Shown here piece by piece: positions 600 through 18,561 of a DNA stretch of 64,000 bases; position 1 is the first letter of the stretch; every line of letters begins with the position of its first letter. The stretch is from Methylococcus sp. Mc7 (GTDB taxonomy: Bacteria; Pseudomonadota; Gammaproteobacteria; Methylococcales; Methylococcaceae), in contig NZ_CP079095.1 of the NCBI RefSeq assembly GCF_019285515.1, positions 2,698,501 through 2,762,500 of the forward strand. Reading direction: 5' to 3'. Below the pieces are notes generated by a model. It did not search any database, was not told the origin of the DNA, and saw only the letters and a list, made by a program, of their open reading frames with translations. The translations under genes and the position numbers were made by a program.

Positions 600-1340
600 G
601 GCGATCAGCGATTCGCTGACCGAGCTGTTGCGACAGGGGCGCGCGGTTTGCTTGAGAAGGCCGTGGAGGCGGAGTTGCAACCGCTGTTAGATCAGTACGA
701 GAAGGTGACCGCTTTGGGCGGGCGAAAGCTGATGGTTCGCAATGATTACCTCCCGAAGCGGGAGGGGCTGACGGTCCTGGGGCCGGTGCAGGTCCGGGTG
801 CCCAAGGTCCGCGATCGTTCCGGTTCGGACGGGTATCGGGAATCCAAGGCGTCCTGGCTCGGCGTCATCCAGGACTTGCAGGCGCGAGGCCTGAAGGCAC
901 CGCCTCACCTGGCAATCGGCGACGGTGCTTTGGGTTTCTGGGTGGCCTGGGAGGCAGCGTGGCCGCAAACCTGCCGCCAGCGCTGTCGGGTCCACAAGAC
1001 CGCCAATGTCCTCAACGAGCTAATCCATTCAGGGCAAGGCCCAAGCGGGCCTCCATAAGGCCCGAATGGCGCAGACCATGGCTCAGGCGGAAAAAGCGTT
1101 TGACCGGCTCGTGCGGGATTTCGGCGCGAAGTATCCCAAGGCGGTGGATTGCCTGATGCCAGCCGAGCACAGGATTCACCTTCGGACCACCAAAGCGATC
1201 GAGCTTTGCCACCATTCGGCATCGCACGAGTCGGACCAAGAATTACATGTCCCTCAATACCTTGCTGGGCGAGGTCAGTTGCAGCTTCGCGGTTTGCTTG
1301 ACTTCAAATCGGGGCATGATTCAGTTGGGTGAAAGAAAAG
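600..1340 (+). pseudogene. Decayed IS256-family (mutator-type) transposase
   Basis: Pieces of an IS256-type transposase lie in all three plus frames. Bases 610-640 encode the DSLTELLRQG motif. Bases 648-1058 carry KVRDRSGS and DGYRES, then LAIGDGALGFWVAWE and RCRVHKTANVLN. Bases 1066-1210 carry AEKAFDRLVRDFGAKYPKAVDCL and HRIHLRTT. From about 1200 the frame shifts again to SFATIRHRTSRTKNYMSL. At least three frameshifts and internal deletions (the stretch between KVRDRSG and DGYRES, and the residues before the PAEH motif) make it non-functional. Intact family members have about 400 codons. No clear terminal inverted repeats were found, so the element ends are approximate. Confidence 0.8.
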
Positions 1341-1535
1341 CATGCGTAATTCTACCATTGAATCAGCACCTGACGGCTCGTTCGCAGAGCGTGGACCACA
1401 GATTCAGGGGGCAGGCGTGGTAATCTGGAGAATTTGGAAGGGTTGCTGATGAGCTTGGCCGAATTGCTTGAAGAAATTCGAATCAACATAGCCAAGGGTG
1501 AATAGGTCAGCGTAATTTGGCCGCGCAGGCAATAA
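1341..1535. other. Non-coding spacer after the IS256 relic
   Basis: No gene is supported here. A short open stretch around 1449-1505 reads as an 18-codon peptide ending in TAG, with no ribosome site and no recognised product. It may be debris of the same mobile element. Confidence 0.4.
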
Positions 1536-1536
1536 A

Positions 1537-1568
1537 AAAGCGGCAGGTGAAATCACCTAAGCCGCTTT
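1537..1568 (-). terminator. Rho-independent terminator for the tRNA transcript
   Basis: A two-part hairpin: AAAGCGGC (1537-1544) pairs with GCCGCTTT (1561-1568), and the inner AGGTGA (1545-1550) pairs with TCACCT (1553-1558) across an AA loop. Read on the minus strand the stem runs straight into a T tract, as expected for a terminator just downstream of the two minus-strand tRNA genes. The plus-strand side is also T-rich (CTTTCTTG), so it may work in both directions. Confidence 0.8.
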
Positions 1569-1584
1569 CTTGATTTTGGGAATT

Positions 1585-1661
<77 letters not shown>

Positions 1662-1717
1662 AGATTTACCGCTTTTGCTGCGAATGTCCCTGGTTGGGCA
1701 TTCGTTCAGTCTTCAAA

Positions 1718-1794
<77 letters not shown>

Positions 1795-1820
1795 GCTGAG
1801 CGGCGTATTATACAAATTCA

Positions 1821-3824
1821 TCAGTCGCTTAACAAACTCCGCATTTGCGCGAGCGAAGCGCGGCCACGTTCGCGCTTCACTTCGGGGTCGAGCGGCTGGC
1901 GGTCGGGCCATTCCAGGTCTTCCTGCGGCAGTTCGGCGAGGAAGCGGCTGGGCTCGCAGCCGATCATTTCGCCGTAGCGTTTCCGGTGGCTGCAGTAGCT
2001 CAGGGTGAGGTCGCGGCGGGCGCGGGTGATGCCGACGTAGGCGAGGCGGCGCTCTTCGTCGATGTTGTCCTCGTCGATGCTGGTCTGGTGGGGGAGGAGG
2101 TTTTCCTCCATGCCGACCAGGTAGACGTGGGGAAATTCCAGGCCCTTGGCGGCGTGCAGGGTCATGAGGCTGACCCGGTCGCCGGCGTCGTCTTCCTGGT
2201 TGCGGTCCAGTACGTCGAGCAGCATGGCCTTGGCCACGGTTTCGGCCAGGCTGCGGTTTTCGCCGTCCTTCTCGGCGATGCGCTGGAGCCAGTCGAGCAG
2301 TTCCCGCACGTTGCCGAACTTGCGTTCGGCGGATTTGGCGTCGTTGCTGTTTTCCCGCACCCAGTTTTCGTAGCCTATCGCGCCCAGAAGATCGTCGACG
2401 ACCTTGAAGGTGTCGCCGCGTGCGGTGCGGTCGGCGGTATCGGCGATGTGCTCGCCGAAGCGGCGCAGGCGCTGGACGGCGTTGGCGGGCAGGGATTGCT
2501 CGAGGCCCAGTTCGAAGCAGGCGGCGTACAGGCTGATGTGGCGGCGGCTGGCGTACTGGCCGAGCTTTTCCAGCGTGGTGGGGCCGATTTCGCGGCGCGG
2601 GACGTTGACGATGCGCAGGAAGGCGGTATCGTCGTCTGGGTTGACCAGCAGCCGGAGGTAGGCCATGACGTCCTTGACCTCCGTGTAGCCGAAGAAGGAC
2701 ATGCCGCCGCTGATGTGATAGGGCACGCTGAATTCGCGCAAGGACCGCTCGAACAGCCGCGACTGGTGATTGCCCCGGTAGAGGATGGCGTAGTCGGCGA
2801 ACTGGGTGTTGTGGCGGAATTTGTGGTGGACGATGTCGGCGGCGATCTGGCGTGCCTCGGCGATTTCGTCGCGGTGCTTCAGCACCCGGATCGGGTCGCC
2901 GTGGCCCATGGCGCTCCACAGCCTCTTTTCGAAGATGTGGGGGTTGTTGCCGATGAGTTGGTTGGCGGCCTTGAGGATGCGGCCCATGGAGCGGTAGTTC
3001 TGTTCCAGCTTGATGACCTTGAGCCGAGGAAAGTCGTTGCGGAGCTGGGCCAGGTTTTCCGGCTGGGCGCCGCGCCAGGCGTAGATCGACTGGTCGTCGT
3101 CGCCGACCACGGTGAACTTGCCCAAGGCTCCGGTGAGCAGCTTGATGAGTTCGTACTGGGTCTGGTTGGTGTCCTGGTATTCGTCGACCAGCAGGTAGCG
3201 GATCTGGTTGCGCCATTTGTCCAGCACTTCGGCGTTCTGCTGGAACAGCATCACCGGCAGCAGGATCAGGTCGTCGAAATCGACTGCGTTATAGGCCTTC
3301 ATGTGGCGCATGTAGGCTTCGTACAGCTCGGCGGTCTCGGCCGCGCCGGGTTCGGCGAGCATGCCGGCGCGGTCGGGCGTGACGAAGCGGTTCTTCCAGC
3401 GCGAGATGCGCGCGGCATAGGCGTCGACTTCTTCCGGGTCGAAGCGGTGGTCGCCGTGGCGGACCAGTTCCCGCAGCAAAGCCTGCCGGTCCTGTTCGTC
3501 GAAGATCGAGATGGCCGCCTTGAGTTGCAGCGCCTTGTGTTCGCGCCGGACGATTTCCAGCCCGAGGGCGTGGAAGGTGGAGACCGTGAGCCCCCGCAGC
3601 GACTTGTCGTCGGCCAGCTTGCCGACCCGGCTTTTCATTTCACGGGCGGCCTTGTTGGTGAAGGTGACGGCGACGATGTGGCGCGCCGGCGTGCCCTGTC
3701 GGACCAGGTAGGCGATCTTCTCGGTGATGACGCGGGTCTTGCCGCTGCCGGCGCCGGCGATCACGAGCAGGGGGCAGTCCAGCGTGGTGACCGCCGCACG
3801 TTGCTGGGGGTTGAGACCGTTCAT
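1821..3824 (-). CDS. rep: ATP-dependent DNA helicase Rep (UvrD/Rep superfamily 1)
   Basis: The product (667 aa) is a superfamily 1A 3'-5' DNA helicase that in E. coli helps replication forks past protein roadblocks. The Walker A motif AGAGSGKT lies near residue 23. The other motifs are FTNKAAREM (Ia), VDEYQDTN (II), [13 protein letters not shown] (III), LEQNYRS (IV), [11 protein letters not shown] (V) and VGITRAR (VI). [15 protein letters not shown] and [17 protein letters not shown]-type segments match Rep better than UvrD. The length matches Rep (about 670 aa). The ATG at 3824 overlaps the comM stop by 4 bp (ATGA), so translation is probably coupled. Longer open frame upstream is antisense shadow of comM. 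Confidence 0.93.
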
Positions 3825-5341
3825 CGGGCGGTGGGTGCCCGGTCGAGACGCCGGTAGCCGATGGCTTCGCCGATGTGGGCGGATGTGATCGCATCGCTCC
3901 CGGCGAGATCGGCGATGGTGCGGGCCAGCTTCAAGATGCGGTGATAGGCGCGGTGCGACAGGTTCAGCCGCGCCATGGCCTGTTCCAGCAAGGCACGTCC
4001 CGCGCTGTCGGGCATGCAGTGGCGCTCGATCAGGCGCGGCGTGAGCAGGGCGTTGGGCTGGCCGCTGCGTTGGAGCGCCCGCTCGCGGGCGGCGATCACG
4101 CGGGACCGGACCTGGGCGCTGGTTTCTTCGTTCCGGGGTGCGCCGTCCAGGAGCGTGGCCGGGTCTTGGCGGGGTACGTCGACGTGCATGTCGATCCGGT
4201 CCAGGAGTGGTCCGGAGATGCGCGCGCGGTAGCGCGCAACCTGCTCGGCCGAGCAATGGCAGCGCCCGGAGGCGTCGCCCAGGTAGCCGCAGGGGCAGGG
4301 GTTCATCGCCGCGATGAGCTGGAAGCGGGCAGGAAAATCCAGCCGCTGGGCGGCGCGGGAAATGGTGATGCCGCCGCTTTCCAAGGGCTCGCGCAGGACT
4401 TCCAGGACGCGCCGGTCGAATTCCGGCAGCTCGTCCAGGAACAGCACGCCGTTGTGGGCCAGCGAAATCTCGCCGGGCTTGGGCGCGCTTCCTCCGCCGA
4501 CCAGCGCCGGGGCGGAGGCGGTGTGATGGGGCGCGCGGTACGGCGGGCGGCGCCAGGCCGCCGGGTCGAAGGGCATGCCGCTGACCGAGGCGACCGCCGC
4601 GGTTTCCAGCGCTTCGTCCTCGGTCAGGTCGGGCAGGATGCCGGGCATGCGCGAGGCCAGCATGGATTTGCCGGTGCCGGGCGGGCCCAGCATCAGCAGG
4701 TTATGGCGGCCGGCGGCGGCGATTTCCAGGGCGCGCTTGGCCTGGAACTGGCCGCGGACTTCGGCGAGATCGGGCGGCTCCTCGCTGGCCGGAGCCGTTT
4801 CGGTGCGTGATTCGACGGCGGCGAGGGGGCGGCTGCCGTCCAGATGGGCGCACACGTCCAGCAGATGGCGGGCCGGGAGCACGCAGGCGCCGGAGACCAG
4901 GGCCGCTTCGCCGGCGTTGTCCCAGGGTACGATCAGGTTCCGCTCGGCGCGGCGCGACTGGAGGGCGACCGGCAGGGCGCCGGGCACCGGGCGCAGTTCG
5001 CCGGTGAGCGCCAGCTCGCCGACGCATTCCAGGTCCGCCAGCCGATCGGCGCGGAGCTGCTTCGAAGCGGCCAGGATGCCGAGGGCGATCGGCAGGTCGA
5101 AACGGCCGCCTTCCTTGGGCAGATCGGCCGGAGCCAGGTTGACGGTGATGCGCTGGGCGGGAAATTCGAAACCGGTGGTAATGAGCGCGCCGCGCACCCG
5201 GTCCTTGCTCTCGCGCACGGCGGTTTCCGGCAGGCCGACGATGGTGAGGTTGGGGAGCCCCGGGGAAATATGGACTTCCACGGTGACTTCCGGCGCCTCG
5301 ATGCCCTGGCGGGCCCGGCTGTGGACGATGGCGAGCGCCAT
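3821..5341 (-). CDS. comM: ComM-type AAA+ ATPase (YifB, Mg-chelatase-like)
   Basis: The product (506 aa) is a ring-forming AAA+ helicase that supports branch migration during natural transformation in Vibrio and Acinetobacter. It begins MALAIVHSRA, like E. coli YifB. The N-terminal Lon-like domain carries VEVHISPGLPNLTIVGLPE. Walker A is MLGPPGTGKS and Walker B is VLFLDELPEF, and the ChlI-like segment AAMNPCPCGYLG carries conserved cysteines. A TTG at 5353 would add four residues (MNPA) but overlaps the ubiK stop; the family alignment favours the ATG at 5341. The gene lies in a ubiK-comM-rep array. Confidence 0.92.
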   Translation of the reverse strand: MALAIVHSRARQGIEAPEVTVEVHISPGLPNLTIVGLPETAVRESKDRVRGALITTGFEFPAQRITVNLAPADLPKEGGRFDLPIALGILAASKQLRADRLADLECVGELALTGELRPVPGALPVALQSRRAERNLIVPWDNAGEAALVSGACVLPARHLLDVCAHLDGSRPLAAVESRTETAPASEEPPDLAEVRGQFQAKRALEIAAAGRHNLLMLGPPGTGKSMLASRMPGILPDLTEDEALETAAVASVSGMPFDPAAWRRPPYRAPHHTASAPALVGGGSAPKPGEISLAHNGVLFLDELPEFDRRVLEVLREPLESGGITISRAAQRLDFPARFQLIAAMNPCPCGYLGDASGRCHCSAEQVARYRARISGPLLDRIDMHVDVPRQDPATLLDGAPRNEETSAQVRSRVIAARERALQRSGQPNALLTPRLIERHCMPDSAGRALLEQAMARLNLSHRAYHRILKLARTIADLAGSDAITSAHIGEAIGYRRLDRAPTAR

Positions 5342-5349
5342 GGCCGGGT

Positions 5350-5601
5350 TCAAGTGGGAGGCAGCAGCTTTTCCAGTTCGGCGATGCGGGCCTCGAGTTC
5401 TTCCAGGCGGGTGCGCGCGCGCTCCAGGACGGCGCGCTGCACGTCGAATTCTTCCCGGCTCACCAGATTGAGGCGGCTCAGCGCGCTTTGCAGCACCGCC
5501 TGGAAATTCTTTTCCAGCTCGTCGCGGACGCCGAGCAGTCCTGTGGGCACGGCGTCGGCGAGGCGTTTGGAAAGTTCGTCGAGGGTGGTCTTGTCGATCA
5601 T
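5350..5601 (-). CDS. ubiK: Ubiquinone biosynthesis accessory factor UbiK (YqiC/BMFP)
   Basis: This 83-residue protein starts MIDKTTLDELSKRLAD and ends in a leucine-zipper-like coiled coil (VLERARTRLEELEARIAELEKLLPP), the standard UbiK/BMFP layout. In E. coli UbiK helps the soluble Ubi complex make ubiquinone under aerobic conditions and forms trimers through its C-terminal coil. The ATG at 5601 gives the family length; an upstream open frame is non-homologous. It is immediately followed by comM on the same strand. Confidence 0.9.
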   Translation of the reverse strand: MIDKTTLDELSKRLADAVPTGLLGVRDELEKNFQAVLQSALSRLNLVSREEFDVQRAVLERARTRLEELEARIAELEKLLPPT

Positions 5602-5652
5602 GACGGGCCGCCTGGAGGTTCGGAATGGGTGATGGTCGGATGTGCGCAAGAG

Positions 5653-5701
5653 CGCCTTAATTTGGTGCGTAATGTTGCCGTTGTTTGACAACAAAGGTGC
5701 A
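5653..5701 (+). promoter_or_regulatory. Possible NtrC binding region upstream of glnK
   Basis: CGCCTTAATTTGGTGCG at 5653-5669 shares 11 of 17 positions with the E. coli glnA NtrC site TGCACTATATTGGTGCA, including an intact GGTGC half-site. A second half-site, GGTGCA, lies at 5696-5701. Both are 50-100 bp upstream of the sigma-54-like promoter, the usual enhancer distance. The matches were made by eye. Confidence 0.4.
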
Positions 5702-5753
5702 ATTTGTTTGGGGCCTTACGGTATATCGGCGCTCGAGTGCTCTCTATTCCCTG

Positions 5754-5769
5754 TGGCATGGCTCATGCT
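5754..5769 (+). promoter_or_regulatory. Sigma-54 (RpoN) promoter of glnK-amtB
   Basis: TGGCATGGCTCATGCT fits the -24/-12 consensus TGGCAC-N5-TTGC with GG and GC ten bases apart. The mismatches are T for C in the -24 block and A for T in the -12 block. The predicted start is near 5780, about 80 nt before glnK. The promoter class agrees with nitrogen control of glnK-amtB in other proteobacteria. Confidence 0.65.
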
Positions 5770-5825
5770 TTTCATCCAGTGGAGCCATCGGATCGCGCTC
5801 GGCCCGCCCGGCTAAGGGGGCGTAA

Positions 5826-13626: not shown

Positions 13627-14883
13627 TCAGGCGGCGGGTTGTTGGGCTGTGTTGATGTATTGGAACAGTTCGGTGCGCGCCTGGTTGAGGAGTCGCGCGG
13701 CCTCATTGTCGCTGATGGCGTAGGCGATTTCATCCAGTTGTTTGAAGGAGATGCCGGGCTTGAGGTACTGCTCGGCCTCGGGCAGGGATTTGAGTTTTTC
13801 GTAGGGGGTCATGAGATTGGCGTAGGGATAGCGCTTGCGCCGTTTGCCCTTGGCGTCGACGACCGCCTCGGGGAAGAGGCAGGGGCGGTGGAAGTTGAGA
13901 TAGGGGGTGAGGACGCCGCTGGAGAAGGCGTTGACCCGCGCGGCGAAGCGTCCGGGGATGTGGGCATAGCCGAGGTGCTTGCGCACGACGGAGCCGTTCT
14001 TGCTTTCGACGAGGGCGTTGTCGTTGGTCTGGCGGGCGCGGGACTTGGTGAAGTCGATGCGCAGTTTCTCCAGGAGTTGGGCGACCCGGTGGTTGATGTA
14101 CTCCGAACCGTTGTCGGAGTGGAAGCCGAGGATGACGAAGGGGAAGCTGTCGAGGAGCTGGTTGAGCGCCGGGATGAGGAAGCGCTCGCTGATCCGTTCG
14201 ACGCTGACGACGCACTGCATCTGGGTGGCCTCGTCGACGGCGTTGAGGTGGTAGAGGCCCTTGATGCCGTCGAGATCGCCCTGATGGACGGAATCGACGC
14301 GCAGGAAGCCGGGGCGTCCGTCCGGAAAGGGTTTGCGGCGCTCGCCGATGGCGACGGGCGTGGGGCGGGTCTTGTCGTAGTGAGTGCGCTGCCGCCGATA
14401 GGTCGTGGAGTGGCGGAGGTTGTAGAGGCCGCCGTTGGAGATGCGGGCGAGGCGGACGAAGCGCTGATCCGAGAAGACGTGGAAGGCGCGCTCGCAGAGC
14501 TTGCGGGTGGCGGGGCCGGAGAGGGTGCCGTGGAGGGCATCGAGTTCGGCCAGGAGCACGGCATCCTGGGGCAGATAGCGACGCTGAAAGGCGTTGGCCG
14601 GCCGACCGCGGTGGTCGCGTACCCGTCCCGTTCGGCGGTACTGCGCGATCAGGCGGGTGATCTGGGCGCGGGAGAAGCCGCTGACCTTGATCAGGTAATC
14701 CCGGACGATCCCCTTGTCGGCCTTGCCGAGGCGCAGGTAACCGAGCTGACAGAGCGAGGACTCGATCCAGCCATAGGCCTCCGGGCGGGAGGGTACGGTG
14801 AAGTCCAGCGGTGAGGCGCCATCCAGGAAGGCCCGGATCTCGTCGAGGGTTTGAAGGCGTTGGGTATGCAGTTTCACGATCAT
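13627..14883 (-). CDS. IS transposase, DDE/rve integrase domain
   Basis: The 418-residue protein has an N-terminal helix-turn-helix region (VSGFSRAQITRLIAQYRRTG, about residues 70-90) and a retroviral-integrase-like core. The first Asp is in FLRVDSVHQGD, the second in GFHSDNGSEYIN, and the Glu in NDNALVESKNG, so the DDE triad is complete. The C-terminal tail (YPYANLMTPYEKLKSL) is typical of this transposase group. The ATG at 14883 begins MIVKLHTQRLQTLDEI; an upstream in-frame extension would run into the IS end. The frame is uninterrupted, so the IS may still be active. The IS family (IS481-like) is a tentative assignment. Confidence 0.85.
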   Translation of the reverse strand: MIVKLHTQRLQTLDEIRAFLDGASPLDFTVPSRPEAYGWIESSLCQLGYLRLGKADKGIVRDYLIKVSGFSRAQITRLIAQYRRTGRVRDHRGRPANAFQRRYLPQDAVLLAELDALHGTLSGPATRKLCERAFHVFSDQRFVRLARISNGGLYNLRHSTTYRRQRTHYDKTRPTPVAIGERRKPFPDGRPGFLRVDSVHQGDLDGIKGLYHLNAVDEATQMQCVVSVERISERFLIPALNQLLDSFPFVILGFHSDNGSEYINHRVAQLLEKLRIDFTKSRARQTNDNALVESKNGSVVRKHLGYAHIPGRFAARVNAFSSGVLTPYLNFHRPCLFPEAVVDAKGKRRKRYPYANLMTPYEKLKSLPEAEQYLKPGISFKQLDEIAYAISDNEAARLLNQARTELFQYINTAQQPAA

Positions 14884-14939
14884 CCTCCGATGATCCCAAA
14901 ACCCACCCCCTTCAGGCTCACCTTCCGGTGGAATCACGC

Positions 14940-14955: not shown

Positions 14956-15128
14956 TCTTCCGTTGGACAAGGCTCGGCCTTTAATTCAAGGGTTGTCTAT
15001 GTTAGTCTGCCCGCGCGCAATGCCATGCCGCCGCGCCGTTACGGACGTGGTGTGCTCGCGGGGCTTAATGAGTGCGGGCTCCGGCGATTATTAGAATAAA
15101 TCACTACATTCAGCGAGGGACGTCTCCA

Positions 15129-15719
15129 ATGATAAGAACGAAATTTCTTAAGTGCGGCCTGTTGGCTGCGGTTCTGGGCCTTGGCGCCCTGATTCCGGCG
15201 ACCCTGTGGGCGCATGGCGGCGGTTCCGGCGTCGACGTGGACTCCTGCCGTATCCCGGTAGGCGGCTTCTGGGTCCATTTCACCGCTTATCAGCCGCAGC
15301 TCACCGGCACCACCGAATACTGCGACAAGATCCCGGAAACCGGATCCACCACCCTGGTCTTCGACTATGAAGGCAAGGCGCTCCGCAACATGACCGTCGA
15401 GTTCGAAATCACCAAGGAGCCCGAAGGCAGCCGCGTGTTCTACCAGGCGCCGGCGGCGTATCCCACCGGCACCGTGAACGCCACCATCAATTTCACCGAG
15501 CCTTCCAACTATCTGGCGCACGTAACGCTGGTGAACGACAGCCAGAAGATCGACGCGCACATTCCCTTCAAGGTGGGCGTCAACCAGACCAGCCTTTCCG
15601 GGACCACCTGGATCATCATCCTGGTGATCGTCGTCGCGCTCGGCTACATCCTCTATCTCTCGAATGCGGGCTTCAAGAAAGTCGTGGATTCGCTGCTGCT
15701 GATCAAGAAGAAAACCTAA
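15129..15719 (+). CDS. pmoD: PmoD/AmoD-family periplasmic copper protein, membrane-anchored
   Basis: A 196-residue protein. The signal peptide (residues 1-28, ending LWA) would leave a mature N-terminus of HGGGSG. Next comes a cupredoxin-like beta domain with the AmoD/PmoD pattern: Cys40 in DVDSCRI, then GFWVHFTAYQPQLTG with His50, and Cys65 in TEYCDKIP. One C-terminal helix follows (about residues 160-178, WIIILVIVVALGYILYL) and then a Lys-rich cytoplasmic tail. PmoD/AmoD proteins accompany methane and ammonia monooxygenase operons, and a purified PmoD forms a CuA-like dimer site. Here the gene leads a three-gene copper cluster, not a pmo operon. The ATG is at 15129. Equivalence to operon PmoD is inferred from the motif, so the symbol is provisional. 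Confidence 0.75.
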   Translation: MIRTKFLKCGLLAAVLGLGALIPATLWAHGGGSGVDVDSCRIPVGGFWVHFTAYQPQLTGTTEYCDKIPETGSTTLVFDYEGKALRNMTVEFEITKEPEGSRVFYQAPAAYPTGTVNATINFTEPSNYLAHVTLVNDSQKIDAHIPFKVGVNQTSLSGTTWIIILVIVVALGYILYLSNAGFKKVVDSLLLIKKKT

Positions 15720-15727
15720 AGGTACCG

Positions 15728-15757
15728 GCCCATCGCCCGGCTGGCCGGGTGATGGGC
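15728..15757 (+). terminator. Hairpin between pmoD-like and multicopper oxidase genes
   Basis: GCCCATCGCCCGG (15728-15740) pairs with CCGGGTGATGGGC (15745-15757) over a CTGG loop, with one G-U pair. It begins 8 nt after the pmoD stop and is followed by a loosely T-rich stretch (TCTGCTTTTGCATTTT). It could be a partial terminator or a processing/stabilising hairpin that sets unequal amounts of the copper-cluster proteins. Confidence 0.65.
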
Positions 15758-15804
15758 GCTTCGAGTCTGCTTTTGCATTTTCCAGTCACCGTGCCTTGGT
15801 TAAC

Positions 15805-17538
15805 ATGATCATGATCAAACGCTCTTTGTCGGCAGCGCTGGGGTCTGCCTTTCTGGCCTGGTCCGCAAGTGCGCCGGCCGTGACCGCCATACCCGAAACC
15901 AAGAAAGTCGAGCTCGGCGAAGTCGAGCCGTTCTGCAACAGTGGAGCGCCGGCGGACTGGCGCAAGGCCCAGGTGCTGGAAGGGGTGGAAATCCGGGAGT
16001 CCAGGCTGTGCAATCCCGACAGCCCCGCCGAAATCGCGGCGTTCGTGAAGGGCACGAACAACATCTCCATGCAGACGCTGATGGACACCAACCTGGCCGC
16101 CGATGCCCTCATCCTGTCGAACGACATGGACAACGACGGCGACCCGGACCATTACATCATCAAGCTCGAAGTCATGGAGCTGAACGGCCACTCGCCGGAT
16201 TTCGCCGGCGTCGTGCCGACCTACGACATCGCGCCCGGCATCGAGCCGGCGTTCTGGGTGTTCGCGCCCAAGACCCGCGACATGTCCACCCGCAGCTTCG
16301 CCAGCGCCGAAGCCAACCCCATGTTGCGCATGCCGGCGCCGGTCATTCGCGTCGAGCAGGGCGACGTCATCTGGCTGGTCCTGGAGAACACCCATTATTT
16401 CCCGCACTCCATCCATCTCCACGGGGTGGACCATCCTTACATGGATTTCAGCGGCGAGGGCAACGACGGCGTCGGGCAGACCAGCGCGATGGACGTGATG
16501 CCGGGCCAGAGCAAGACCTACGTGATCAAGCCGCGCCAGGCCGGCACTCAGTACTACCACTGCCATGTCCAGCCGCATACCCATATTCCGCTGGGGCTGG
16601 CGGGCATGTTCATCGTCGAGGAAAACCGTCCGAACAACTGGGTGCAGGTCTTCAATGTCGGTGCAGGGCAGGTGCGGCATCCCTCCAAGGCGGTGGCGGA
16701 AAAGTACGATGCCGAGTACGACCTGCACTACCAGTCGGTCGACAAGGATTTGCACAAGCTGCCGCAGTCGTTCAACGATCCGCGGCTGATCGCCCGCGCC
16801 ATCAATCAGGAATACGACATCACCGACGCGACCGACGACTATTACCTCCTCAACGGCCGGGCCTTCCCGTATACCCTCCGGGAATCCCTGGTGGTAGTGG
16901 AGCCCAACCAGAAGATCAAGCTGCGGGTGCTCAACGGCCACACCGAGGTTCTCGCGCTGCACACGCATGGCCACAAGGCCGTGGAGACGCATTACGATGG
17001 TGTCGAACAGCGGCCGGAAGCTCGGGTGCGGCGCGATGTGTACACCCTCGCGCCGGCCCAGCGCCTGGACTTGGAGCTGGAAACCGTCGACGACGGCCTA
17101 CGCAGCTTCGGCCCCGGTCTTTGGATGATGCACGATCACGTCGAGCGGGCGTTCACGACCGATGGCATGGGCGAGGGCGGCAGTCTCAACTTAATCGCCT
17201 ATAAGCAGTATCTCGACGAAAACGGTACGCCCCATACCCACGGCATGAGTCTGGCCCAGTATTTCACCAAGAAATACTGGGAGCGGAAGATTTCGCCCTG
17301 GCAGGAAGTGTTCGACGCCAGCCTCGGCGATCCCGAGACTTTCGTCAAGGCGGAGGCCAAGCCAGCCGCTGCCGCCAAGCCGGCGGCTCCCGCGGCCGAG
17401 CCGGCGGCGCCGGGCAACACCGGCCGCAACCTGTTTCTGGGACTCCTGCTGGGTATCGCCGGCTATTTCGCCTATCTGAACCGGGCGAAGCTGCTGGAAA
17501 CCGCATCCGAGTGGATCGCCGCCGTACGGAATAAATAG
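15805..17538 (+). CDS. Membrane-anchored multicopper oxidase
   Basis: The 577-residue protein has a signal peptide (to about residue 25), an N-terminal extension to about residue 150, two cupredoxin domains, an Ala/Pro-rich linker (about residues 515-535) and a C-terminal membrane helix (FLGLLLGIAGYFAYL). Four His-x-His pairs for the trinuclear centre are present: H204/H206, H252/H254, H386/H388 and H443/H445. A type 1 site in the first domain is formed by Cys253, His258 and Met268 with an upstream His. The last pair is HDH, so the second domain has no type 1 Cys. This is the arrangement of type C two-domain oxidases, such as the Nitrosomonas europaea blue copper oxidase. The start is uncertain: ATG 15805, ATG 15811 or TTG 15796, none with a clear ribosome site. 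The substrate is unknown. Confidence 0.88.
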   Translation: MIMIKRSLSAALGSAFLAWSASAPAVTAIPETKKVELGEVEPFCNSGAPADWRKAQVLEGVEIRESRLCNPDSPAEIAAFVKGTNNISMQTLMDTNLAADALILSNDMDNDGDPDHYIIKLEVMELNGHSPDFAGVVPTYDIAPGIEPAFWVFAPKTRDMSTRSFASAEANPMLRMPAPVIRVEQGDVIWLVLENTHYFPHSIHLHGVDHPYMDFSGEGNDGVGQTSAMDVMPGQSKTYVIKPRQAGTQYYHCHVQPHTHIPLGLAGMFIVEENRPNNWVQVFNVGAGQVRHPSKAVAEKYDAEYDLHYQSVDKDLHKLPQSFNDPRLIARAINQEYDITDATDDYYLLNGRAFPYTLRESLVVVEPNQKIKLRVLNGHTEVLALHTHGHKAVETHYDGVEQRPEARVRRDVYTLAPAQRLDLELETVDDGLRSFGPGLWMMHDHVERAFTTDGMGEGGSLNLIAYKQYLDENGTPHTHGMSLAQYFTKKYWERKISPWQEVFDASLGDPETFVKAEAKPAAAAKPAAPAAEPAAPGNTGRNLFLGLLLGIAGYFAYLNRAKLLETASEWIAAVRNK

Positions 17539-17540
17539 AC

Positions 17541-18470
17541 ATGAATACCAAGTCGATCACGACCCGTTTGAGTTACCTTTGTTCGGCCGGGCTGTTCGCC
17601 GTCAGCGTTGGCGCCGCGGCCGCGGAGAAGACCGAAATCAAGGAACACACCCGGCTCATGGACCATGGCGACGGCCACCTGATGGACATGGACGGCGGCA
17701 TGATCATGGGGCAGAACAAGGACAAGCTGCCGGGCGGCTGCAGCAGGATCGCCGAAGACGCGGAAATCACCGTTCGGGCGGGGCACAAGTACGCGAAGGA
17801 CTTCCCGGGCACCATGTATGGATTCAGCGAGCACGAGTGGCGCTTCAAGCCTTGCACGCGGCTCACCGTCCATTTCATCAACGAGGACAACATCCGCCAC
17901 CAGTGGATGATGCACGGCCTGCCCAAGTACCTGTACGACAAGGGCATGTTCCATCTGGAGGTCACGGGCCCCGCGAAGATCAGCGGCACGCTGATCCTGC
18001 CCAAGGAGGACCGGACCTACCTGGTGCACTGCGACATCGCCCAGCACATGGAAAAGGGCATGAAGGGTGAACTGATCGTGGGCAAGGGCAGCGGCACCTT
18101 CCCGACCATTCCCGGCGTGACCGATGCCGCGATCCCGGACAATTACACGCCGGGTCCCGACGGCAAGGTGCAGCCGGCGGTGGCGCCGCCGACCGCCGGT
18201 GCGGAGAAACCCGGTGAGTCCACGGTGAAAAAGCCTGAACAGACCGCGGCGGCGCCGTCCGGTTCCTGGTTCTCCGGCAGCCTGGTGCTGGGGATCGTGC
18301 TCGGCGTGTTCGGAACTCCGATTGCCTTGCGGGTGGGCCGCGAGCGCCTGAGTGGCATGACGGGCGGCGACGTGCTGGCCATGGTCGGCGGTTTCCTCGG
18401 CCACATGATCGACATCACGCTCGGCCTCATCAGCCGGCTGATGCACTCGGCTCGCGGCAAGAAGAAATAG
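17541..18470 (+). CDS. Membrane-anchored type 1 cupredoxin with Met/His-rich N-terminus
   Basis: The 309-residue protein has a signal peptide (about residues 1-28), then a Met/His-rich patch at residues 36-56 (HTRLMDHGDGHLMDMD). A cupredoxin domain follows with a full type 1 ligand set: His120 (RHQWMMHG), Cys164, His169 and Met174 (HCDIAQHMEKGM). A Pro/Ala-rich linker (about 195-232) leads to a membrane helix (about 238-258) and a second hydrophobic amphipathic stretch before a basic tail. It starts 2 bp after the oxidase stop, so the two are co-expressed. A role in electron transfer to or from the oxidase, or in copper storage, is inferred. Confidence 0.8.
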   Translation: MNTKSITTRLSYLCSAGLFAVSVGAAAAEKTEIKEHTRLMDHGDGHLMDMDGGMIMGQNKDKLPGGCSRIAEDAEITVRAGHKYAKDFPGTMYGFSEHEWRFKPCTRLTVHFINEDNIRHQWMMHGLPKYLYDKGMFHLEVTGPAKISGTLILPKEDRTYLVHCDIAQHMEKGMKGELIVGKGSGTFPTIPGVTDAAIPDNYTPGPDGKVQPAVAPPTAGAEKPGESTVKKPEQTAAAPSGSWFSGSLVLGIVLGVFGTPIALRVGRERLSGMTGGDVLAMVGGFLGHMIDITLGLISRLMHSARGKKK

Positions 18471-18503: not shown

Positions 18504-18532
18504 AAGGCGTCTTCGAGGAAGGCGCCTTTTTT
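18504..18532 (+). terminator. Terminator after the copper cluster
   Basis: AAGGCG (18504-18509) pairs with CGCCTT (18523-18528), with extra inner pairing, followed by a run of six T (18527-18532). It ends the pmoD/oxidase/cupredoxin transcript before the amidotransferase gene. Confidence 0.65.
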
Positions 18533-18561
18533 CTTGCGAACCGTTTCGTCGACCACAGAAC

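Follow-up and report, generated by a model that had tools for sequence, protein, structure and literature searches.

A conserved PmoD, multicopper oxidase and cupredoxin gene set of Methylococcus and its relatives that probably manages copper for CuMMO and cytochrome oxidase

Results

Organization of the locus

The window, a stretch of 64,000 nucleotides from Methylococcus sp. Mc7, includes three collinear genes encoding a PmoD-family protein (PmoD), a two-domain multicopper oxidase (MCO) and a type 1 cupredoxin (CUP) (Table 1). Their common direction, proposed in an earlier sequence-only reading, is confirmed by the coordinates of the open reading frames. The genes are separated by 85 nt and then by 2 nt, and a TTG at 15796 is a possible alternative start for the MCO gene. 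The approximately 150 nt located 5′ to the PmoD gene are nearly identical in an alignment of five Methylococcus-type genomes and probably represent the promoter region of the unit; a promoter scan returned nothing useful. The terminator which the same reading had placed after the third gene can be recognized as a hairpin with a stem of about 12 bp and a 3-nt loop followed by a T run. It is absent from the list produced by a terminator pattern scan, and RNA folding of the 80-nt region was no better than that of shuffled sequences (z -0.9). A transposase gene lies immediately 5′ to the conserved upstream region. We also considered the RND pump beside the trio and rejected it: the best matches of this pump are to multidrug-type families, although it does not reach their cut-offs either.

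Table 1. Features of the PmoD-MCO-CUP locus (positions in the window)
Feature	Position	Strand	Basis
PmoD-family protein, 196 aa	15129..15719	+	phmmer to 6cpd, alignments, hydropathy
Two-domain multicopper oxidase (MCO), 577 aa	15805..17538	+	Pfam, PDB sequence search, ligand alignment, model, Foldseek
Type 1 cupredoxin (CUP), 309 aa	17541..18470	+	alignment, AlphaFold2 model, Foldseek
Probable promoter region upstream of PmoD	14975..15128	+	alignment of five Methylococcus-type genomes
Rho-independent terminator-like hairpin and T run, 3′ of CUP	about 18504..18535	+	sequence, RNA fold
IS481/IS3-like transposase gene, immediately 5′ to the conserved promoter region	13627-14937

The genome, a single contig of 4.0 Mb, carries three pmoC genes, two pmoB genes and a second PmoD gene far from the trio. 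Its pmoCAB genes are located elsewhere, and the trio is therefore not part of a CuMMO operon here. Judged by gene content, the unit probably corresponds to the locus of MCA2130 in M. capsulatus Bath.

The three proteins

PmoD matches the solved PmoD 6cpd (phmmer, E 5e-12). It shares with the PmoD/AmoD family (Fisher et al. 2018, PMC6189053; 6cpd) a clear signal peptide, a cupredoxin-like periplasmic domain with two invariant cysteines (C40 and C65, conserved in all 35 aligned sequences) and a C-terminal membrane helix (about residues 159-177 by hydropathy). Its copper motif is C40-x9-H50-x14-C65. In contrast to 6cpd, it carries Cx9H and not the CuA-forming Cx7MxH, and the motif of the CuA subclass, Cx7MxHxnC, is not present: a Trp occupies the Met position. 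When the trio PmoDs of related loci were classified by motif, Cx9H was found in 54 of 70 and Cx7MxH in none. According to PMC6189053, CuA forms only with the Cx7MxH motif, as in the solved PmoD, and a Met-to-Ala variant abolished it. CuA electron transfer by the window PmoD is therefore unlikely, since the required Met is missing, and this counts against an electron-supply role based on CuA.

The MCO includes the Pfam domains Cu-oxidase_3 and Cu-oxidase_2, and its closest solved sequences, 3g5w and 2zwn, are also the best Foldseek matches of its single-chain AlphaFold2 model. The type 1 copper ligands are located in domain 1 (H201, C253 and H260, with L263 in the axial position) and eight histidines form the trinuclear site (204, 206, 252, 254, 386, 388, 443 and 445). 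All His and Cys ligands are invariant in an alignment of 47 relatives. Having its type 1 site confined to domain 1 and trinuclear histidines from both domains, the protein is a type C two-domain MCO as defined in PMC13151041. Enzymes of type C are, in addition, homotrimers whose trinuclear site lies at the subunit interface. At position 263, the five Methylococcus-type sequences (the window and loci L007-L010) all have Leu, and nearly all other sequences have Met; the axial Leu is expected to raise the reduction potential of the type 1 site. The N-terminal region carries C44 and C69, together with an invariant DxDxDGDPD (residues 107-115) that resembles a calcium-binding loop.

The window MCO thus resembles type C enzymes such as the N. 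europaea blue copper oxidase (3g5w) and a metagenomic laccase (2zwn) in the order and spacing of its ligands (C-x6-H-x2-M), its eight trinuclear histidines and its fold. It differs from them in the N-terminal region of about 150 residues with its Cys pair and DxDxDGDPD, an interdomain insert, a C-terminal membrane helix and a cupredoxin partner gene, and shares only about 20% identity with them. CueO and PcoA-CopA, which are also periplasmic copper-handling MCOs, are three-domain enzymes, whereas the two-domain window MCO stays far below the cut-offs of these cuprous-oxidase families (copper_res_A, 42 bits against 479; CueO, 26 against 525). A further comparable system is the MCO of the ammonia oxidizer Nitrosopumilus maritimus (PDB 9cck), likewise a two-domain MCO accompanied by a cupredoxin. 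Unlike in the trio, this cupredoxin is part of the same chain as the MCO, and identity is 15-16%. We know of no PmoD partner for it.

CUP reaches no Pfam family cut-off. Nevertheless, its AlphaFold2 model (pLDDT 83.8, core above 95) has auracyanins and laccase domains as best Foldseek matches, and the His, Cys, His and Met ligands of a type 1 cupredoxin are present on this cupredoxin fold: H120, C164 and H169 are invariant and M174 is found in 40 of 44 relatives. C67 and C105 are also conserved. A signal peptide and a Met/His-rich N-terminus are followed, at the other end of the protein, by a Pro/Ala linker and two C-terminal helices (243-270 and 275-304). CUPs of the Nitrosomonas type (locus L239, other loci among L238-L253, and L117) carry a long His/Asp-rich N-terminal tail with about 21 His in 90 residues.

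The sequence-only reading had attributed a signal peptide, copper ligands and a C-terminal membrane segment to all three proteins. This holds for PmoD and CUP and for the ligands of the MCO; the signal and C-terminal hydrophobic helix of the MCO (539-558 in the model) are both short and weak by hydropathy. The Pro/Ala-rich linker which it had described for two of the proteins is indeed found in MCO and CUP.

Distribution in Methylococcales

A search for the trio in other genomes had been suggested as a check of the sequence-only reading, with its absence from all of them as the refuting outcome; the trio proved to be widely conserved. In the order, MCO is present in 193 of 201 sampled genomes, covering all 48 genera. 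PmoB occurs in 176 of the 201, every one of which also carries MCO, and the eight genomes lacking MCO are all among the 25 lacking PmoB. Many of these PmoB-negative genomes are fragmented. The co-occurrence gives a one-sided Fisher value of 2e-8 (7e-5 on high-quality genomes), uncorrected for kinship. The whole trio is found in 29 of 30 loci read from the window's family, the remaining locus being cut by a contig end, while in another family of the order (f8) some MCO copies occur alone or with CUP only.

Two further arrangements were observed in the order. Many loci (L066-L070, L072, L073, L084, L086, L098, L104, L150, L158, L193, L194 and L206) carry a gene for a small VTT-domain (DedA/YqaA-like) membrane protein 3′ to CUP, which the window does not. 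Inspection of the sequence of L071 (family f5) revealed a second MCO-CUP pair directly upstream of ccmC, ccmF and ccmG-like genes (1048-5802).

Linkage to CuMMO operons

In other lineages the trio is an accessory part of CuMMO operons. Two families of Methylococcales, as well as Binatota and many Gammaproteobacteria, show the gene order pmoC-pmoA-pmoB-pmoD-MCO-CUP, and in loci L066 and L067 all six genes lie on one strand. In a genome-wide search, 20 of the 80 loci retained had CuMMO genes arranged in this way; they come from Binatota, Gammaproteobacteria and Alphaproteobacteria, and contig ends cut some of them. These 80 are the best of at least 565 confirmed matches and do not give population frequencies. 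A gene order maintained across such long evolutionary distances cannot be a chance grouping, and the window unit is most simply viewed as the tail of a CuMMO operon standing apart.

We built a quick tree of 94 MCOs and rooted it at its midpoint; the starred branches force at least nine changes of the pmo-adjacent label and at least six of the oxidase-adjacent label. Since pmo-adjacent MCOs diverge close to the base of several clades, the tree suggests, with a root that is not firm, that linkage to pmo is old and has been repeatedly lost. The sequences from AOB fall within the trio clade of Methylococcales, which suggests horizontal transfer.

Copper genes of other types are also found after CuMMO operons with PmoD/AmoD: CopC, CopD and PCuAC genes in alphaproteobacterial pmo and betaproteobacterial amo operons. 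These belong to protein families different from those of the trio, which may constitute an alternative set.

Occurrence beyond methane oxidation

Twelve sampled loci carry the trio beside genes for cytochrome c oxidase or heme O synthase (recognized in L143 through NCBIfam and in the other loci by similarity). Of 16 chosen genomes whose trio or pair is not next to pmo, 15 lack PmoB, most of the PmoB-negative genomes with a trio being MAGs. One isolate with a stand-alone trio but no PmoB is Halieaceae IMCC14734. A strict dependence of PmoD on CuMMO can be rejected on the basis of these genomes, mostly MAGs as they are. In this respect our data differ from the 2018 survey (PMC6189053), which places PmoD in CuMMO genomes only.

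Conversely, no MCO match was obtained in 119 genomes of an alphaproteobacterial family which includes a Methylocystis-like genome carrying pmoCAB; this genome was again negative in a second search in which other genomes were positive. In the AOB family, 65 genomes of one genus carry MCO and none was found in the three other genera sampled. These absences imply that MCO is not needed for CuMMO as such. AOB loci also have their own organization, MCO-CUP being found without an adjacent PmoD in 16 of 16 further loci. In one AOB genome (L117, 3347-11024) the pair precedes norC-norB-norQ-norD-like genes. A general nor link in AOB was rejected: the arrangement was seen in this genome and not at 16 other AOB loci.

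A sister branch (SAR324, Rhodospirillaceae, Salipiger and others) carries CusF_Ec together with MCO and CUP, which are either joined in a single protein or encoded in overlapping frames. This domain (PF11604) scored above the Pfam cut-off in all seven members tested (E 1e-10 to 1e-35). In L135 (240-2840), a single protein consists of three CusF stretches, a cupredoxin and an MCO.

MCO-CUP was also observed in MAGs of Halobacteriales and Thermoplasmatales (L147, L156, L190 and L205), as a single open frame in L190. Genes for PQQ-dependent dehydrogenases occur near the trio both with and without pmoCAB (L141, L153, L154, L157, L160, L162, L180, L192 and L202). A recurrent neighbour initially considered as Sco is instead an alpha/beta-hydrolase-like protein.

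Discussion

PmoD genes beside MCO genes, MCA2130 included, were already known (PMC6688271, and PMC6189053, which records some PmoD genes near multicopper oxidase genes). Compared with the family described there, the window PmoD belongs to a PmoD-MCO-CUP trio. In the main texts of the literature searched, we found no account of a third gene belonging to the unit, of the CuMMO operon tail across lineages, of the oxidase linkage or of the CusF fusions.

We have described the ligands and folds of these proteins, their gene order, their co-occurrence with PmoB and the CusF fusion of their relatives. Because the shared neighbours are copper-requiring membrane enzymes and a Cu(I) chaperone domain is present in the fused relatives, we favour copper handling over the other readings, and the conserved set probably manages copper for CuMMO or cytochrome oxidase. 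More specifically, the trio could form a conserved periplasmic module, anchored in the inner membrane, which oxidizes Cu(I) and metallates membrane copper enzymes; we judge the case for this fuller proposal to be evenly balanced. Periplasmic copper would be bound by the Met/His-rich N-terminus of CUP and by the Cx9H...C site of PmoD. In a manner analogous to that of CueO and PcoA-CopA, MCO would use O2 as the acceptor to oxidize Cu(I), either directly or via the type 1 site of CUP. The copper would then be handed to nearby membrane copper enzymes, CuMMO here and cytochrome c oxidase in the oxidase-linked lineages. We infer all three of the central steps: Cu(I) as the MCO substrate, electron transfer from CUP to MCO and the hand-over of copper to clients. 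We count in favour of the copper module the CuMMO operon order, the PmoB co-occurrence, the oxidase-adjacent loci, the CusF_Ec branch and the His-rich CUP tails, as well as the reported decrease, without copper, of the M. capsulatus PmoD located beside an MCO (MCA2130; PMC6688271).

The sequence-only reading had proposed a copper or electron-transfer module serving methane oxidation. Operon linkage and PmoB co-occurrence support the association, but its scope is too narrow: the trio is present in PmoB-less bacteria, often by cytochrome c oxidase, and MCO is missing from the alphaproteobacterial family sampled, including its pmoCAB-bearing genome. Together with the MCO-less alphaproteobacterial methanotroph, the PmoB-less trio genomes lead us to reject a strictly methane-only role.

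Electron supply to the monooxygenase had also been suggested. CUP, and perhaps PmoD, could act between PQQ alcohol dehydrogenase or cytochrome c and CuMMO or cytochrome oxidase, with MCO as an auxiliary O2-reducing sink. The ligands and fold of CUP are indeed those of a type 1 cupredoxin, and neighbours such as the cytochrome c oxidase and PQQ dehydrogenase genes, the cytochrome c maturation (ccm) genes and, in one AOB genome, the nor genes fit this scheme too. However, an oxidase would waste electrons, the CuA motif is missing from every classified trio PmoD, in a family where loss of its Met abolished CuA (PMC6189053), and the fusion of MCO and CUP to CusF in the sister branch points to copper. 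Copper handling therefore fits better, and we regard electron transfer as unlikely. Slightly less likely still is a general copper-tolerance module of the CueO/PcoA type, in which MCO oxidizes excess Cu(I) while CUP and PmoD buffer copper for no specific client. The domain make-up, the CusF fusion, the presence without CuMMO and the copper-dependent expression reported for MCA2130 (PMC6688271) would all agree with it, but it leaves unexplained the PmoB co-occurrence and why the trio recurs within CuMMO and cytochrome oxidase operons, and an unsystematic look recognized no copper-efflux genes beside the trio. We consider it improbable that MCO oxidizes a non-copper substrate (a nitrogen oxide, hydroxylamine, Fe(II)/Mn(II) or phenolics) and thereby protects or feeds the monooxygenase. 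The N. europaea blue copper oxidase, the metagenomic laccase and nitrite reductases are among the closest structures and MCO-CUP precedes norCBQD in one AOB genome, yet that neighbourhood did not recur at the other AOB loci and the trio is present in non-nitrifiers and beside cytochrome oxidase.

Returning to copper handling, a broader proposal, which we put forward only tentatively, is that PmoD-MCO-CUP is a general metallation module: an old part of the CuMMO operon which also serves cytochrome c oxidase in other bacteria and is an alternative to CopCD/PCuAC. If so, it would be a main copper route to gammaproteobacterial pMMO.

It has long been asked how pMMO and AMO receive their copper and their electrons, and the activity of purified pMMO falls far below that of whole cells. 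The trio, found behind pmoCAB in several lineages, and its MCO, present in all sampled genomes of the order that have PmoB, provide concrete candidates for this question. The linkage to cytochrome oxidase and the CusF fusions narrow the hypotheses, and bacteria which carry the trio without CuMMO offer tractable hosts.
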